From: Acidobacteriota bacterium
Lineage (GTDB): Bacteria > Acidobacteriota > Terriglobia > Acidiferrales > UBA7541
NCBI GenBank assembly: GCA_003154775.1
Contig: PMES01000029.1
Location: 46,678-96,149, forward strand
DNA length: 49,472 nucleotides
Direction: 5' to 3'
Shown one piece after another: positions 16,796 through 25,907 of this stretch. The stretch's first letter is position 1. Every line of letters starts with the position of its first letter. The notes beneath the pieces were generated by a model that did no database searches, was not told the origin of the DNA, and saw nothing but the letters and a program-made list of their open reading frames with translations. The translations under genes were made by a program, and so were the position numbers.

Positions 16796-17353
16796 TCATT
16801 CCTCTCTTTGTGGGATTTTGTAGCGGCCGCCTTCTGAGGTGGGCGCTTTTGACGTCCACGGCGGACACCACAAAGCGGAGGAAGACGACATCTGCGCAGA
16901 CATTTGAGTGCGCGATCCGGCAAACGGATACTCTCCGACGGCACGGGACAATCCTTTCCGGACAGGATTCATCCAGATGTAGTAGGCAACCGGCTCGATT
17001 GGCTCGTTTGGGCGGAGAATATGATCGAAGTGCTTCTTCTGCCATAGAGGTTGCGACTCATTTTGGTGGTGGGCGCGACTTGTCTTGATCTTGAGCGCTT
17101 TGACGAAGTTCGTAAAATCGCTGGAGGGAAGTAGGCCCTCGGCCAGGACATGTATATGATCGGGCATGATGCAGTAGGCGTGGATTGCAAAGCCCCGTGC
17201 CGCGGATTCCGAGCGAAGAACTTCGAGAAGCCAACAACAGGATGTGGGGTCGGAGAATGTCTGGCGCCGGTCGCAGCAACATAGTGTCATAAAATAGAAC
17301 TGGCGACCTACGTAGCTGCCCATTGAGAGACGAATATTCTTGTGAAAGTACAT
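16796..17353 (-). CDS. REP-associated tyrosine transposase (RAYT), copy 2
   Basis: A 185-residue RAYT with intact catalytic residues: HUH motif PDHIHVL (H66, H68) and tyrosine Y125 in YYIWMNPVRKG. It is paralogous to the copy at 16-558. It is bracketed by inverted REPs: 17422-17449 lies 68 bp upstream of the start, and 16819-16846 lies inside the coding tail, so the C-terminal residues KAPTSEGGRYK are REP-encoded. The gene plus its REPs forms a compact unit between the propeller gene and cinA, on the strand opposite to both. Confidence 0.92.
   Translation of the reverse strand: MYFHKNIRLSMGSYVGRQFYFMTLCCCDRRQTFSDPTSCCWLLEVLRSESAARGFAIHAYCIMPDHIHVLAEGLLPSSDFTNFVKALKIKTSRAHHQNESQPLWQKKHFDHILRPNEPIEPVAYYIWMNPVRKGLSRAVGEYPFAGSRTQMSAQMSSSSALWCPPWTSKAPTSEGGRYKIPQREE
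16819..16846 (-). repeat. REP, 3' side of RAYT 2 (inside its coding tail)
   Basis: 28 bases beginning TGTAG followed by a GGCCGCC / GGCGGGC-type hairpin. It is the inverted counterpart of 17422-17449 with a single mismatch. Confidence 0.85.
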
Positions 17354-18794: not shown

Positions 18795-19355
18795 ATGCGT
18801 CTCTTCATCGCCATCGAGATTTCCCCGGATGTGCGCGCTGCTCTCGCGGCCCTGCTCAAGGAATTCCGCGCCATCGCCCCGCAGGTGAAATGGGCTCGCC
18901 CGGAAAACATGCACCTCACGCTGAAATTTCTTGGCGAAACCGACAGCTCGAAACTTACGGCCATGCAAGCCGCATTGTCCGCGATTCGTTCCAGCCAATC
19001 CGTCACCCTCCATTTCCGCGGCCTCGGCTTCTTCCCCAACGCAAAACGCGCCAAGGTCTTCTGGGCCGGCATGGAAGCTTCGCCAAACCTGCCGTCGCTC
19101 GCGGCGGAGATCGACCAGGCCACGCACAAACTTGGTTTCCCTCTGGAAGACCGCCCCTTCACCCCGCATCTCACGCTGGCGCGCTTTCAGCCTCCCGGCC
19201 TTCCCCATAGGCTCCCTGCCGCCGCGCAAGAAGCTGCCTCACGCAATTTCGGTTCGCTCACTGCCCACGAGTTCCACCTCATCGAAAGCAAACTCAAACC
19301 CGCCGGGGCGGAGTACACTATTCTGCAATCCTTCCCGTTCGTCGCGGAGGTTTGA
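18795..19355 (+). CDS. thpR: RNA 2',3'-cyclic phosphodiesterase ThpR
   Basis: A 186-residue 2H phosphoesterase from the ATG at 18795 (MRLFIAIEIS), the normal family start; the frame is open upstream into cinA. The two catalytic HxTx motifs are present: HLTLKFLGE in the N-terminal half and HLTLARF in the C-terminal half. The closing FHLIESKLKPAGAEYTIL is also characteristic. The enzyme opens 2',3'-cyclic phosphate RNA ends and shows ligase activity in vitro. plsY begins six bases after its stop, and the GGAGG serving plsY overlaps its last codons, so translation is probably coupled. Confidence 0.94.
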   Translation: MRLFIAIEISPDVRAALAALLKEFRAIAPQVKWARPENMHLTLKFLGETDSSKLTAMQAALSAIRSSQSVTLHFRGLGFFPNAKRAKVFWAGMEASPNLPSLAAEIDQATHKLGFPLEDRPFTPHLTLARFQPPGLPHRLPAAAQEAASRNFGSLTAHEFHLIESKLKPAGAEYTILQSFPFVAEV

Positions 19356-20181: not shown

Positions 20182-21966
20182 ATGGCGGTCTCTCTCCCAT
20201 CCCTGGTGACGCGCCTGCGTGCCGGCCGCGTGCGCATCCTCTGGCTCGTGCTCGGCGCGCTCCTCCTTGTGAGCGCACTCCCTATCGGTCTGTATCATCG
20301 TCAGGTGCTGGAGCTCAGCCAGGAAAAACTGGTGGATACCGAGCGCGTTCAGCAAACCGAACTCGCCCGCTCGCTCGCGCAGGAAGTGCAATTCTTTGAG
20401 TCCAACCTCACGCAACAGCTCATCAGCCAGCGCCAGATTCTCGCGCTCACCGGCCTGATCGATAACGTCGAGGACCCTGCCGCCGAGCCCAAAGTCACGC
20501 GCTTGCTCGAAAATTTCGTGGATTCGAATCGCAACACGTTTATCTACCTGACCGCCGTGGGCCGCTCCGGCAAGGGCACCAGCGCCTCGCAAGGCAATTT
20601 TCGCGCGGAGCAGGATCCCTTCGTGGCCAAGGCGTTGCAGCGCGCGTTTGTCAGTTGTGTGCAGTCCGTGAAATTCCGCAGCGATCCCCTGGCGCTCGCG
20701 CCGGACAATCGCCCCGCGTTCGTCATTGCCGTGCCGCTGAAGGATTCCAACGACAACTTCACCGGCATGCTCGCGGCGGTGGTTTCGCTGGACACGATTC
20801 TCCGCCGTTTGCAGGACGCCAGCGTGCGCGGGCGCAGCGTTTTCATTGTGGATCACTACGGCCACATCGTGGCGCACCCGCTGACAAAGACCTTTGTGCC
20901 CGGCGAGGATCTTAGCGAGAAATCGCATCTCGTCGCGCAAATCAAGGCCCTGCCCAAGGAACTGCGCAACACCGAAACCATGCGCTTCTCTGAAAAAGAA
21001 AAAAACCATTCCGTGGAAATGGTCGGCACCTACAGCACCTTCCCTGAAGTCAATTGGGCGGTCATCGCGCAGCGCAGCGTCAATGATGCGCGGTCCGATG
21101 CTGGTGTTACCGAGCTGAACCGCCAGGCGCTGGCTTTCGTTTCCATCGTCGTATTGCTCGCCGTTCTCTTTGGCTATTTCTTTGCCGTCGGCATCAGCGA
21201 ACCTATTCGCGGACTGGCTGCTTCCACGCGCGCCATCAGCCGCGGCGAATTCCACCAGCGCACGCCCGTACGCGGCGCCGCCGAAATCAGCGAACTGGCC
21301 GAAAACTTCAACCTCATGGCCAGCGACATCGAGGAGTACATTGAGCGCCTGAAGGAAGCCGCGGAGGAAAACCGCGAGCTCTTCATCGGCTCCATCCGCA
21401 TGCTCGCGGCCGCCATCGACGAAAAGGATCCCTATACGCGAGGCCACTCTGGCCGTGTGGCCAAGTATTCCTCGCTGATCGCGCAGGAGCTTAAGCTTTC
21501 CCCCGAGGATCTGGACAAGGTGCGCATCTCCGCCCTGCTTCATGACGTCGGCAAGATTGGCGTGGATGACCGCGTCCTGAAGAAGCCCGGCTCGCTTACT
21601 CCCGAAGAGTTCGACATCATGAAAACGCACACCACCAAGGGCGCCAACATCATGCGCCCGGTGTCGCAGCTCAAGGACATGCTCCCCGGCATCGAACTCC
21701 ATCACGAGCACATGGACGGCCGCGGCTATCCCTACGGCCTCTCTGGGCCGCAGATTCCGCTGATGGCACGCATCATCGCAATCGCAGATACCCTCGACGC
21801 CATGACCACCAATCGCCCTTATCAGAGCGCCATGGACCTCGACTACGCCTTGGGGCGCATCAAGGCCCTCGCCGGTTCCAAGTTCGACCAGGCCATCGTC
21901 AACGCCCTCGAATCCGCGGTGAAATGCGGAAAGATTCGCCTCTCCGCCGTCGAAGTTCACGTCTAG
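20182..21966 (+). CDS. Membrane HD-GYP cyclic-di-GMP phosphodiesterase with Cache sensor
   Basis: 594 residues. A membrane helix at about 16-35 is followed by a periplasmic double-Cache-type sensor (about 40-305), a second helix (about 318-338), a HAMP linker (AISEPIRGLAAST-like) and a C-terminal HD-GYP domain (about 400-590). Catalytic features are complete: RGHSGRVAKYS, the HD pair H454-D455 in LLHDVGKIG, and the GYP motif H507-H-E-x2-D-G-x-G-Y-P517. The protein should hydrolyse cyclic di-GMP in response to an extracytoplasmic ligand. It starts 125 bp after the gpsA stub and is probably monocistronic, with ftsY 169 bp further on. Confidence 0.93.
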   Translation: MAVSLPSLVTRLRAGRVRILWLVLGALLLVSALPIGLYHRQVLELSQEKLVDTERVQQTELARSLAQEVQFFESNLTQQLISQRQILALTGLIDNVEDPAAEPKVTRLLENFVDSNRNTFIYLTAVGRSGKGTSASQGNFRAEQDPFVAKALQRAFVSCVQSVKFRSDPLALAPDNRPAFVIAVPLKDSNDNFTGMLAAVVSLDTILRRLQDASVRGRSVFIVDHYGHIVAHPLTKTFVPGEDLSEKSHLVAQIKALPKELRNTETMRFSEKEKNHSVEMVGTYSTFPEVNWAVIAQRSVNDARSDAGVTELNRQALAFVSIVVLLAVLFGYFFAVGISEPIRGLAASTRAISRGEFHQRTPVRGAAEISELAENFNLMASDIEEYIERLKEAAEENRELFIGSIRMLAAAIDEKDPYTRGHSGRVAKYSSLIAQELKLSPEDLDKVRISALLHDVGKIGVDDRVLKKPGSLTPEEFDIMKTHTTKGANIMRPVSQLKDMLPGIELHHEHMDGRGYPYGLSGPQIPLMARIIAIADTLDAMTTNRPYQSAMDLDYALGRIKALAGSKFDQAIVNALESAVKCGKIRLSAVEVHV

Positions 21967-21987
21967 TCTCTAGTCCCTCGCCCTCAC

Positions 21988-22034
21988 GAGCAGGACTTGT
22001 CATCCAGAGCGAAGCGAAGGACCTCGCCTGCTCT
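21988..22034. repeat. GTCATCC(A)GAGCGAAGCGA dispersed repeat
   Basis: GAGCAGG and CCTGCTC enclose a GTCATCCAGAGCGAAGCGAAGG core in the gap between the HD-GYP gene and ftsY. The core is related to the repeats at 23107-23175, 35948-36003, 44822-44982 and 49308-49455. Confidence 0.6.
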
Positions 22035-22135
22035 GATACTCTAACCACTCGGGTTCCTGCAGCGCTGGCTTTTAGGCCCGCGCAGTTCCATCTGCTACAA
22101 TTTTCATGCGCGCTAGTTGAGTTGCGCGCAACGGT

Positions 22136-23086
22136 ATGATCACCCTCTTCGGCAAACCCGAACCCACCCTCCTCGTGCGGTTGAAGGAATCCGTTGGCAA
22201 GACCAAGGACGCCCTCGCCGACACTCTGGATACCATCACGCAGGGTGGCCGCCAGATTGATCCCTCCGTCCTCAAGGAAGTCGAGAATGCCCTTCTTTCC
22301 GCCGATTTGGGCGTCAAAACCACGCGCGAAATTCTCGATTCCGTGCGCGAGCAGATGTCTCGCAACGCCTTGAATAACGGCGAACAGCTCAAGCGTGAAA
22401 TCAAAGCGCACGTCTTTCGCGCGCTGAACGTGTACGGTGCTTCGCCCAAACTTGCCGACGCCGCCAACGGTTCGGACCCGCGCGTTATTTTTGTCGTTGG
22501 CGTGAACGGCGCAGGAAAAACCACCAGTATCGGCAAGCTCGCCAATCGCCTGCGCCAGGAGGGCCGCAGTGTGGTCCTCTGCGCGGCGGACACCTTTCGC
22601 GCCGCTGCGGTCGAGCAGCTCGAAATCTGGGCTCAGCGCAACGGCGTGGAAGTCATCAAGCAGAAATCCGGCGCCGATCCCGCCGCCGTCGTTTACGACG
22701 CGATGGCCGCAGCCAAAGCGCGTAACGCCGATGCGGTTATCGTGGACACGGCGGGCCGCCTGCACACCAAATCGAATCTCATGCAGGAACTAGAGAAGAT
22801 GAAGCGTACCGCCGCCAAAGTGATTCCCGGCGCGCCCCATGACATTCTGCTGGTGCTGGACGCCACCACTGGCCAGAACGGCCTGGCCCAGGCCCGCGAA
22901 TTCACCGCCAGCGTCGGCGTCACCGGCATCATCCTGACCAAGCTCGATGGCACGGCCAAGGGCGGCATCGTGGTCGCCATTTCCCGCGAGCTCGGCCTGC
23001 CCATTCGTTTCGTCGGCACCGGCGAGCAGCTCAACGACCTCGTCCCCTTCGACGCGCAAACCTACGCCGACTCGCTCTTTGACTAG
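22136..23086 (+). CDS. ftsY: Signal recognition particle receptor FtsY
   Basis: A 316-residue SRP-family GTPase that docks ribosome-SRP complexes at the membrane. The N domain (about 1-100) is followed by the NG core: P-loop [18 protein letters not shown] (near 121-138), [11 protein letters not shown], the [13 protein letters not shown] box and [10 protein letters not shown]. The closing [15 protein letters not shown] is typical. It lacks the long acidic A domain of E. coli FtsY and starts almost directly with the N domain, as in many other phyla. The ATG at 22136 is chosen for the canonical length. Confidence 0.96.
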
Positions 23087-23175: not shown

Positions 23176-23205
23176 CGCGCCACGGGACCACCCTTTTTGT
23201 CGCCT

Positions 23206-24315
23206 ATGCCTGACTCTCACGATCTTCACTTCATGCAACATGCGCTGGACCTCGCGCGCAAGGGCGTCGGACTCGCCAGCCCCAACCCCACTGTCGGCTG
23301 CGTCATCGTCAAGGATGGCGCGATACTCGGCGAGGGCTTCCACCAATACCACTGGCGCGACCACGCGGAAATCGTCGCGCTCAAACAATCCGGAGACCGC
23401 GCGAGCGTCGCCACCCTCTACGTCACTCTCGAGCCTTGCAATCACACGGGCCGCACCGGCCCCTGTACCGAAGCGCTCATCGCCGCTGGAATCTCCCGCG
23501 TCGTTGCCGCGATGCAGGATCCCAATCCAAAGACGCGCGGCAGCGGTTTCGCTCGCCTGCGAGCCGCGGGCATCGAAGTGGAGACCGGCCTCCTCGAATC
23601 CGAAGCCGAAAAACTCAATGAAGCCTTCGCCTGCTGGATCACCACGAAAAAGCCCTTCGTCACGCTGAAATCGGCGATGACCCTCGACGGCCAGCTCGCC
23701 CTTCCCGGAGCGAGCGAGGGCAAGAAGCGCGCGTGGATCAGCAGCGAGGAATCCCGCGCCGAAGTGCAGCGCATGCGCCACGCTTCCGATGCGCTTCTCA
23801 CCGGCATCGGCACCATCCTCGCCGACGATCCGCTTCTTACCGATCGCAATGGCCTCGAGCGCCGCCGCCGTCTCCTTCGCGTCATCCTGGACACGAACCT
23901 GCGCCTCCCGCTCAAGTCGCGCATCGTGCAAACCGCCAACGACGACCTTCTAGTCTTCACCGCCGCCTCGTTCAAATCCCCAAAAGCCCGCAAATTGCAA
24001 AACGCCGGTGTTGAATTGGTGCACATAAAATCACGCGCCGGCAAAATCGATTTCGACGCTGTGCTGAAGGAAATGGGCCGCCGCGAAATCCTCAGCGTTC
24101 TGCTCGAAGCCGGCCCGACGCTCAACGGCGCAGCCCTCTCTGCCGGCATCGTGCAGAAACTCATTCTCTTTTACGCGCCTAAGCTAGGCGGCAATACCGG
24201 TGTTCTGTTCGCGGATGCGCCAAATTACACCCTTCCAGCGTTGCACATTCGTTCCGTTCGACAATTTGGCCCCGACGTGGCTCTCGAACTCATTGTGGGC
24301 AAGCTCGCGAAGTAG
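23206..24315 (+). CDS. ribD: Riboflavin biosynthesis deaminase/reductase RibD
   Basis: A bifunctional 369-residue enzyme carrying out the deamination and reduction steps after GTP ring opening in riboflavin synthesis. The ATG at 23206 gives MPDSHDLHFMQHALDLARKG, the family start; an upstream extension would be encoded by the repeat. The N-terminal deaminase has the zinc ligands H53 (HAE, with E55), C78 and C87 in EPCNHTGRTGPCTEAL. The C-terminal reductase (about 150-365) contains VTLKSAMTLDGQLA and LLEAGPTLNGAAL. Both halves look intact. ribE lies on the same strand beyond two opposite-strand Cys-protein genes, so the riboflavin genes do not form a simple operon. The stop codon lies at the edge of a GGGGTCC/GGACCCC hairpin at 24315-24337. 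Confidence 0.95.
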   Translation: MPDSHDLHFMQHALDLARKGVGLASPNPTVGCVIVKDGAILGEGFHQYHWRDHAEIVALKQSGDRASVATLYVTLEPCNHTGRTGPCTEALIAAGISRVVAAMQDPNPKTRGSGFARLRAAGIEVETGLLESEAEKLNEAFACWITTKKPFVTLKSAMTLDGQLALPGASEGKKRAWISSEESRAEVQRMRHASDALLTGIGTILADDPLLTDRNGLERRRRLLRVILDTNLRLPLKSRIVQTANDDLLVFTAASFKSPKARKLQNAGVELVHIKSRAGKIDFDAVLKEMGRREILSVLLEAGPTLNGAALSAGIVQKLILFYAPKLGGNTGVLFADAPNYTLPALHIRSVRQFGPDVALELIVGKLAK

Positions 24316-24476
24316 GGGTCCGGCACCGCTGGACCCCATGTCCGCGCAATCAAAGGTTGGCATGCAACCATGCATTTGCGCCTTCCAAGGCGAAAGTTTC
24401 ACGGCCCGGCGTGCGTTCACGCCACAACCATCTCCCGGTTATAATCTTTGCGACATTCGCGCCCCATCCACGCAAG

Positions 24477-24502
24477 AAAAAAGGCCGCTCGAAGGCGGCC
24501 TC
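24477..24502 (-). terminator. Rho-independent terminator for Cys-protein A gene
   Basis: On the minus strand, about 28 bases after the stop of the 24530-24751 gene, AGGCCGCC-TTCGA-GCGGCCT forms a tight stem followed by a run of T. It is well placed to end the leftward transcript. Confidence 0.8.
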
Positions 24503-24529
24503 TTCCAAAAAAATTTGCCCTGAATTCCG

Positions 24530-24751
24530 TCAGTTGTTCTTGTCAAAATCGCGCAGCAGGCAACTCATCGCGCAGTTCACTTCCCCGTCCGGCTGCAGGG
24601 AACATTCCAGCACCGACCAGTCTTCATCATCCTCAACATGAAATTTCGCGGCTGTAATACTGGCGATCTTGTCTTTATTGGGGCAAACCACGTCGCGGGA
24701 GCGAAAGCTACACGTCTGCAGGATGCGGTCGAGAACTTCGGGATCGGACAT
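24530..24751 (-). CDS. Small Cys-rich protein A, unknown
   Basis: 73 residues with a strong GGAGG upstream of the ATG and a terminator after the stop, so it is very probably a real gene. Cysteines are C14, C23, C50, C60 and C64. The C-terminal block W-S-V-L-E-C-S-L-Q-P-D-G-E-V-N-C-A-M-S-C-L is shared, with identical spacing, with the neighbouring gene at 24878-25105. The fixed C-x9-C-x3-C pattern plus one upstream Cys suggests a zinc or iron-sulphur site or a disulphide core. There is no signal peptide. It lies between ribD and ribE on the opposite strand. I do not recognise the family. Confidence 0.8.
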   Translation of the reverse strand: MSDPEVLDRILQTCSFRSRDVVCPNKDKIASITAAKFHVEDDEDWSVLECSLQPDGEVNCAMSCLLRDFDKNN

Positions 24752-24877
24752 GCCTTACCTCCGTCGCAAAGGCCGGGGATGACCTGATTTTCACCATGGT
24801 GCACTTCTCAAAGCGTACTGTCAAGAAATCTGATTTGCGCGCCAGCCTCTGCGTCCCGGATGGGGGGAGCCCGCCGG

Positions 24878-25105
24878 TTACGGCCTATCCACTCGCGCCT
24901 GGGACAAGCAATCCATTCCGCAGTGCACGGCCCCGGGCGGCAGCAAGGAACAATCGATCACTCGCCAGTCGCTCCAGCCCTCTTCGCTGTGCGGCCAATT
25001 CGCCACTACTACGCGCGCTTCACATTGCCGTTGCGAACAGAATACCTTTTGCGGATAGGTCTTCGCGGATTCCGGATGTGGATCGGTAAGTTTTGGGTCG
25101 AACAT
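24878..25105 (-). CDS. Small Cys-rich protein B, paralogue of protein A
   Basis: 75 residues; AAAGGTGG precedes the ATG. Cysteines are C23, C28, C52, C62 and C66. The C-terminal half (W-R-V-I-D-C-S-L-L-P-P-G-A-V-H-C-G-M-D-C-L) aligns without gaps to protein A. C23 also aligns (VVC versus VFC), giving four conserved Cys. The N-terminal part is divergent and Pro/His-rich, and the middle contains a Trp cluster (NWPHSEEGWSDW). The gene lies 126 bp upstream of protein A in the same direction. A minus-strand TTGACA at 24819-24824 between them could be a -35 element for protein A, but no good -10 follows. Confidence 0.78.
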   Translation of the reverse strand: MFDPKLTDPHPESAKTYPQKVFCSQRQCEARVVVANWPHSEEGWSDWRVIDCSLLPPGAVHCGMDCLSQARVDRP

Positions 25106-25259
25106 AAACCACCTTTAACCAGGAGCGTGGCCTGAGGTCATCTTGCCCTCGGGTCCCTCCTTCGTCAAGGATTTACGTCACGCTTCGCGGTATCCTGTTA
25201 TTTCGCTCCACCGATCGGCCGTTCCGCTGGCAACGCGGCCAATTTCATGCGAGGTCTTT

Positions 25260-25907
25260 ATGTTCACCGGCATCATCGAGCATCTCGGCACCATCGATTC
25301 CCTGCAACTCCACGCGGACGGCGGACGGCTCACCATCCACGCGCCCACGGTCACTCCGCATTTGGCCATCGCCAACAGCATCGCCGTGAACGGTTGCTGC
25401 CTCACGGTTGTCGCCATGGGAGACGATCGCTTCTCCGCCGATCTTTCCGGGGAAACCATTCGCAAGACCTCCTTCGGTGAACTGCGGCCGGGGATGCGCA
25501 TCAATCTCGAACAACCCATGACCGCCGGCAAAGAGTTTGGCGGCCATTTTGTTCTGGGTCACGTGGACACAATTGGCCGTGTCACCCGTCTTGAACCCGA
25601 AGGCGAGAACTGGTGGTACGGCGTGGAGGTTCCGGAATCGTTCGCACACTCCATCGTGCCCCAGGGCTCCATCGCCATTGATGGCATCAGCCTGACCGTC
25701 GCGCGCTGGCACGATCGCATCGCCGAAATCGCCATCATCCCCTTCACCTATGAACACACCAATGTGCGCGCCATCAAAATCGGCGACGCCGTCAACCTCG
25801 AGGGCGATGTTCTGGGGAAGTACGTCGAGCGCTACCTGGAAGCGCGCAGCGCGGCCAAGCCGGCCAGCAATCTCACCATCGAACAACTGGTCAGCCGGGG
25901 CTTCTAG
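25260..25907 (+). CDS. ribE: Riboflavin synthase alpha chain
   Basis: 215 residues from the ATG at 25260, which gives the invariant MFTGIIE start; GAGG lies about nine bases upstream. The enzyme dismutates two molecules of 6,7-dimethyl-8-ribityllumazine into riboflavin. The two lumazine-binding repeats are visible: repeat one with VNGCCLTV and FGELRPGMRINLE, then GGHFVLGHVDTIG, and repeat two with IDGISLTVA and FTYEHTNV. Length is typical. I see no FMN riboswitch in the 150 bp upstream. Its 3' end faces the APC permease gene across a pair of inverted REP-like palindromes. Confidence 0.95.
   Translation: MFTGIIEHLGTIDSLQLHADGGRLTIHAPTVTPHLAIANSIAVNGCCLTVVAMGDDRFSADLSGETIRKTSFGELRPGMRINLEQPMTAGKEFGGHFVLGHVDTIGRVTRLEPEGENWWYGVEVPESFAHSIVPQGSIAIDGISLTVARWHDRIAEIAIIPFTYEHTNVRAIKIGDAVNLEGDVLGKYVERYLEARSAAKPASNLTIEQLVSRGF

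Follow-up and report, generated by a model that had tools for sequence, protein, structure and literature searches.

Small four-cysteine proteins in bacteria

Ruc (Rv0991c) from M. tuberculosis is a redox-regulated zinc chaperone, whose four conserved cysteines have been shown to bind one zinc (PMC7448276). In this protein, a zinc-ribbon-like N-terminus of about 50 amino acids precedes a C-terminus that is variable and disordered; Ruc has been linked to chaperone genes (PMC7448276).

The proteins P1 and P2, encoded side by side in an Acidobacteriota genome, are like Ruc in being very small cytosolic bacterial proteins with four conserved cysteines. The system in itself is not surprising. The analysis defines an uncatalogued protein family for a large and poorly studied soil phylum, and because the invariant four-Cys module occurs in anchored proteins, short and long, as well as in soluble duplicated ones, metal binding and partner choice are testable on a protein of 73-75 residues.

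The P1 and P2 genes

The window, that is, the whole stretch of 49,472 nucleotides that was analyzed, includes the following features in and around the gene pair:

24530..24751, minus strand: P1, a soluble four-Cys protein of 73 aa (ORF and translation), second gene of the pair by transcription
24557..24604, minus strand: conserved block of P1, codons 50-65, CSLQPDGEVNCAMSCL, with Cys columns invariant in a 53-protein alignment
24757..24762, minus strand: ribosome-binding site of P1, GGAGGT
24878..25105, minus strand: P2, a soluble four-Cys protein of 75 aa (ORF and translation), first gene of the pair by transcription
24905..24952, minus strand: conserved block of P2, codons 52-67, CSLLPPGAVHCGMDCL, with Cys columns invariant in the same alignment
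25109..25116, minus strand: ribosome-binding site of P2, AAAGGTGG
24477..24507, minus strand: hairpin and U-tract 3' of P1 (fold -19.3 kcal/mol, z -1.77)
23203..24315, plus strand: ribD, flanking (TIGR00326, E 5.4e-99), with no evidence of a functional link
25260..25907, plus strand: ribE, riboflavin synthase, flanking and divergent from P2 (TIGR00187, E 4.5e-59), with no evidence of a functional link

An earlier sequence-only reading of this DNA had described two ORFs of 73 and 75 codons between ribD and ribE, each with a good ribosome-binding site. Both ORFs and their purine-rich sites are present, on the strand opposite to the two riboflavin genes; the gene which that reading placed first, P1, is the second by transcription. 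P1 and P2 are paralogous, with 34% identity across 67 aa (BLASTP, E = 9e-12). The described block C-S-L-x-P-x-G-x-V-x-C-x-M-x-C-L occurs exactly in P1 (C50-C60-C64) and in P2 (C52-C62-C66), and the one further aligned cysteine is residue 23 of both. The shared cysteines, four per protein (P1: 23/50/60/64; P2: 23/52/62/66), are thus spaced as C-x26/28-C-x9-C-x3-C. Each protein has in addition one extra cysteine, the lineage-conserved Cys14 in P1 and Cys28, specific to P2.

P1 and P2 are genuine genes kept by purifying selection. The Ka/Ks values obtained with the orthologues in two congeneric genomes, G035 and G020, are 0.09-0.19 for P1 and 0.07-0.13 for P2, which places the pair beyond chance. 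The hairpin and U-tract 3' of P1 probably form a terminator between the convergent genes ribD and P1. The terminator had been called strong, a description with just moderate support, since a simple terminator pattern scan did not report the hairpin.

Elsewhere in the window, two similar ORFs (16-558 and 16796-17353, both on the minus strand) resemble, by eye, IS200/REP-associated (Y1) transposases.

A family of Acidobacteriota proteins

P2 as a single query already matched members in other genomes; with P1 as a single query, the first scan of genome contigs gave no match. Within the same taxonomic family, a profile of P1/P2-type proteins led to short relatives bearing a transmembrane helix at the N-terminus; a wider profile detected members in at least 76 of 399 genomes of the class and at least 24 of 396 genomes of the phylum, counts that are probably lower bounds, with 13 candidates scored per genome. 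When named genomes were scanned using the long form of the family, almost all matches belonged to Acidobacteriota (Terriglobia, Bryobacterales, Blastocatellia, Vicinamibacterales, and Holophagales); the few remaining ones came from MAGs labelled KSB1, Anaerolineales, and Acidimicrobiia.

The invariant cysteines in the alignment of 53 proteins are exactly the four common to P1 and P2, although some bias remains in this result, as the alignment was assembled partly via the four-Cys pattern and the profile was built from four-Cys members. For this reason, profile matches missing the pattern were also checked. Full-length matches outside the strict pattern (L108-L111) retain all four cysteines, and the sole exception among the pattern-missing matches, L116, is truncated where its contig stops. 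Homologues outside this genome therefore keep exactly the cysteines that the sequence-only reading had singled out. P1 and P2 both carry the family signature V-x-C ... C-S/P-L/R ... C-x3-C-L, are aligned throughout, and match the profile with E about 1e-30 or better, both being seed members.

Scans of the single proteins, and of every form tested, against Pfam and NCBIfam identified no family model; profile searches of PDB sequences returned chance matches only, and literature searches found nothing on this four-Cys family. By profile comparison, P1 and P2 are members of a widespread, uncatalogued Acidobacteriota family.

Architectures and evolutionary history

The family comprises three main architectures: soluble proteins of 72-80 aa, which include P1 and P2, short anchored proteins of about 82-120 aa, and long anchored proteins of about 180-230 aa. 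Most members have a single N-terminal transmembrane helix. This anchor is absent in P1 and P2, in which the maximum 19-residue hydropathy (0.52 and 1.08) is not N-terminal, and the description of a four-Cys site in a small soluble protein holds; neither protein has a signal or transmembrane segment. In all 124 of the 124 members bearing a transmembrane helix, the side of the module is the more positive one, with a mean net charge of +4.0, the opposite side averaging -0.16. By the positive-inside rule, the positive charge after the helix would place the module of the anchored relatives on the cytosolic side of the inner membrane. A disulfide fold had been offered as one possibility for the cysteines. 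It is unlikely, because of this charge pattern and because P1 and P2 lack the N-terminal hydrophobic segment that was looked for as a mark of an exported disulfide mini-protein.

Long forms add a second four-Cys domain, CxxC...CxxC, which is unnamed in Pfam and NCBIfam. Among 74 long relatives, the only invariant columns are eight cysteines and P42, R75, W76, and P77. Besides P1 and P2, the window genome encodes a long paralogue (G000:C65) and a fragment (G000:C15). In the paralogue, at 21875-22150 of its contig (L042, L058), and in its relatives (L138-L217), the second domain reads CxxC...CxxCH, with the histidine present in 64 of the 74. Foldseek and VIA gave weak treble-clef/HNH structural rows for this domain, with Z up to 3.9. 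Since the HNH-type DH is not conserved, the domain could be a zinc domain with no catalytic role. A c-type cytochrome, considered on account of the CxxCH, was set aside, as the charge rule puts the domain in the cytosol and the Pfam cytochrome matches are insignificant. The fragment (about 19062-19169; L130 5051-5512) is a truncated second copy of the long paralogue, devoid of the anchor and of the first cysteine of the module. Proteins of some species (L102, L104, L105, and L215) have a multi-transmembrane C-terminal region after the module, in place of the second four-Cys domain.

In the family tree, soluble members form one group (95/97), with the anchored proteins of G044 and G055 as its likely nearest relatives (88/82). 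P1 groups with the single copy of a third congener, G018 (91/66), and P2 forms a long branch. The tree is unrooted and based on 62 columns only, so the branching order is tentative. The simplest history apparently suggested by these sequences is that the anchor was lost once and that a tandem duplication followed later in one lineage.

Predicted structure of the module

The AlphaFold2 model of P2 (mean pLDDT 69, pTM 0.55) has strands at residues 15-23, 28-38, and 45-52 and a helix at 65-68. C23 closes strand 1 and C52 closes strand 3, with C62 and C66 at the next turn and helix. Such a meander would place C23 and C52 on one edge, beside C62 and C66. The long paralogue of the window genome, predicted with a mean pLDDT of 90.8, shows the same order of elements. 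In this model, C82 and C86 lie at the start of a helix (82-92), and confidence falls to its lowest in the segment that holds C73, C82, and C86 (block means 66 and 74). For the module, structural searches with Foldseek and VIA, using the P2 model and the long paralogue, stayed at noise level (Z of at most 3.0 for P2) and pointed to no known zinc fold. Structure prediction had been proposed as a check on whether the four cysteines converge. The predicted strand order fits such a convergence, in a P2 model whose mean pLDDT is just 69, and it is from this order only that the convergence would follow.

Genomic neighbors of the relatives

In five species of one genus (G056, G068, G072, G063, and G046; L049, L051-L054), the short anchored form has ZnuCB-like ABC transporter genes and an mscL-like gene nearby. 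In another genus (G048 and G058; L055, L056), it is found near a CDF cation exporter. A STAS gene is close by in L055 and L062. The metal-transporter neighborhood is suggestive, yet lineage-local, and it does not constitute a strict operon in all species, an opposite-strand gene being located between the anchored form and the ZnuCB-like genes in G068 and G046. Neighbor clustering of 80 long-form loci detected lineage-specific neighbors only, such as a malic-enzyme-like or an aminotransferase-like gene.

Proposed function and alternatives

P1 and P2 are interpreted, with moderate confidence, as cytosolic Cys4 metal (zinc) modules with a docking or regulatory role. The invariance of the four cysteines, purifying selection, the charge pattern of the anchored relatives, and the strand order predicted for P2 and the long paralogue support the reading as a Cys4 metal module, as do the metal-transport genes near anchored forms in two genera. 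Against it stand the low confidence of the P2 model and of the Cys-rich segment of the paralogue, the structural searches that yielded no matching zinc fold, and the confinement of the metal-transport neighbors to single lineages. Each protein would be little beyond one small beta-alpha module, in which the four invariant cysteines form one structural metal site. The first two ligands would be placed after strand 1 and at the end of strand 3, with the other two, a CxxxC pair, at the final helix or close to it. Zinc is the metal favored for this site, most likely as Zn(Cys)4. In the family at large, the module would normally be fixed by one helix to the inner membrane, on its cytosolic side; in the window lineage, the tether would have been lost and the gene then duplicated. 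The metal-stabilized module would most likely bind a partner protein as a docking or regulatory domain, and the two diverged copies would serve different partners or conditions. Of the possibilities raised by the sequence-only reading for the cysteines, a metal or cluster site appears to be the most economical explanation of four invariant residues.

The same site could instead operate as a redox switch, with zinc bound to the reduced cysteines and oxidation causing disulfide formation, zinc release, and the onset of client binding, as in Ruc or Hsp33. Cytosolic mini-proteins with a Cys4 site are suited to this mechanism, for which Ruc sets a precedent (PMC7448276), and the extra, lineage-conserved cysteines C14 of P1 and C28 of P2 could serve redox chemistry. 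These two residues are, however, not conserved across the family. Moreover, the long variable C-terminal region of Ruc homologues has no counterpart in P1 and P2, which stop about 9 residues past the last cysteine, and no chaperone or oxidative-stress neighbors were recognized at the loci examined, all of which makes the switch unlikely.

More doubtful is an iron-sulfur or other redox-metal protein, in which the four cysteines would carry a cluster for electron transfer or sensing. Four Cys ligands would suffice for a cluster, a possibility that the earlier reading had raised, but the curated cluster families of Pfam and NCBIfam gave no match, no reductase or Fe-S assembly genes were recognized among the neighbors, and the flavin genes are not co-distributed with the family.

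The neighbors of the anchored forms, ZnuCB-like genes in one genus and a CDF exporter in another, would agree with a third function, that of a zinc-homeostasis factor storing, delivering, or sensing zinc for transporters. This function is improbable for the family, given that each association is confined to one lineage, that an opposite-strand gene intervenes in two of the five species of the first genus, and that metal genes adjoin neither the window locus nor the loci of the other species examined. A further and still fainter prospect is that the soluble copies, free of a tether, compete with the anchored relatives of the same cell or serve them as carriers; they would dock on the partner of those relatives and set its membrane-bound share according to zinc or redox state.

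The riboflavin locus

The position of P1 and P2 between ribD and ribE had been taken as a hint of a flavin or redox link. The pair lies beside ribE in two congeners, G035, in which the contig stops before ribD, and G020, in which ribD is located about 3.8 kb further. In G018, a single P1-like gene adjoins ribE, and an alcohol-dehydrogenase-like gene lies between it and ribD. Single soluble copies in G010, from the same genus, and G078, from the same family, have unrelated surroundings. While ribE is present in 35 of 36 congeneric genomes, Cys genes were found adjoining it in 4, up to 1500 bases upstream of ribE having been inspected in 30 genomes. The gap between ribD and ribE (24316-25259 in the window; L218-L247 in congeners) is a variable spot in the genus. 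It measures 14-99 bp in some species; upstream of ribE, many congeners carry a divergent, opposite-strand alcohol-dehydrogenase-like gene, and others carry aminotransferase-like, acyl-ligase-like, or other genes.

The flavin link is not supported, because ribE occurs without Cys genes, the contents of the gap vary, and the copies of G010 and G078 lie elsewhere; the position of P1 and P2 between the two genes is incidental. A role as riboflavin-pathway accessories acting on RibD, RibE, or flavin, to which the adjacency in the window and three congeners would point, is therefore highly improbable, the more so as no FMN riboswitch was found in the window. A gene placed between two genes of a pathway need not share the function of that pathway. 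The sequence-only reading was a real and well-described observation; its interpretation is borne out for the Cys site and unsupported for the flavin hint.

Comparison with known systems

The preferred reading, a Cys4 metal module, sets P1 and P2 beside several zinc-binding proteins. They are unlike Ruc in the arrangement of the ligands, which in P1 and P2 are a single Cys, a second single Cys, and a CxxxC, and in having no long disordered tail after the site. The classical zinc ribbon requires two CxxC pairs, which the spacing C-x26/28-C-x9-C-x3-C does not fit. In the treble-clef, the first two ligands belong to one CxxC knuckle, whereas 26-28 residues separate the first two cysteines of P1 and P2. 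Its last two ligands stand at the N-terminus of a helix, a position predicted for C82 and C86 of the long paralogue in a segment of low confidence (block pLDDT 66-74). The only Pfam model with a weak local match to P2 is zf-CGNR (PF11706); membership was rejected, with a score of 12.7 bits against a cut-off of 24 and a match restricted to residues 19-36 (E = 0.11). The long anchored Acidobacteriota proteins (e.g., G000:C65, L042) contain the same four-Cys module as P1 and P2, homologous by profile, and differ from them in possessing one transmembrane helix, an R-W-P motif beside the second cysteine, and about 100 extra residues with the CxxC...CxxC domain.
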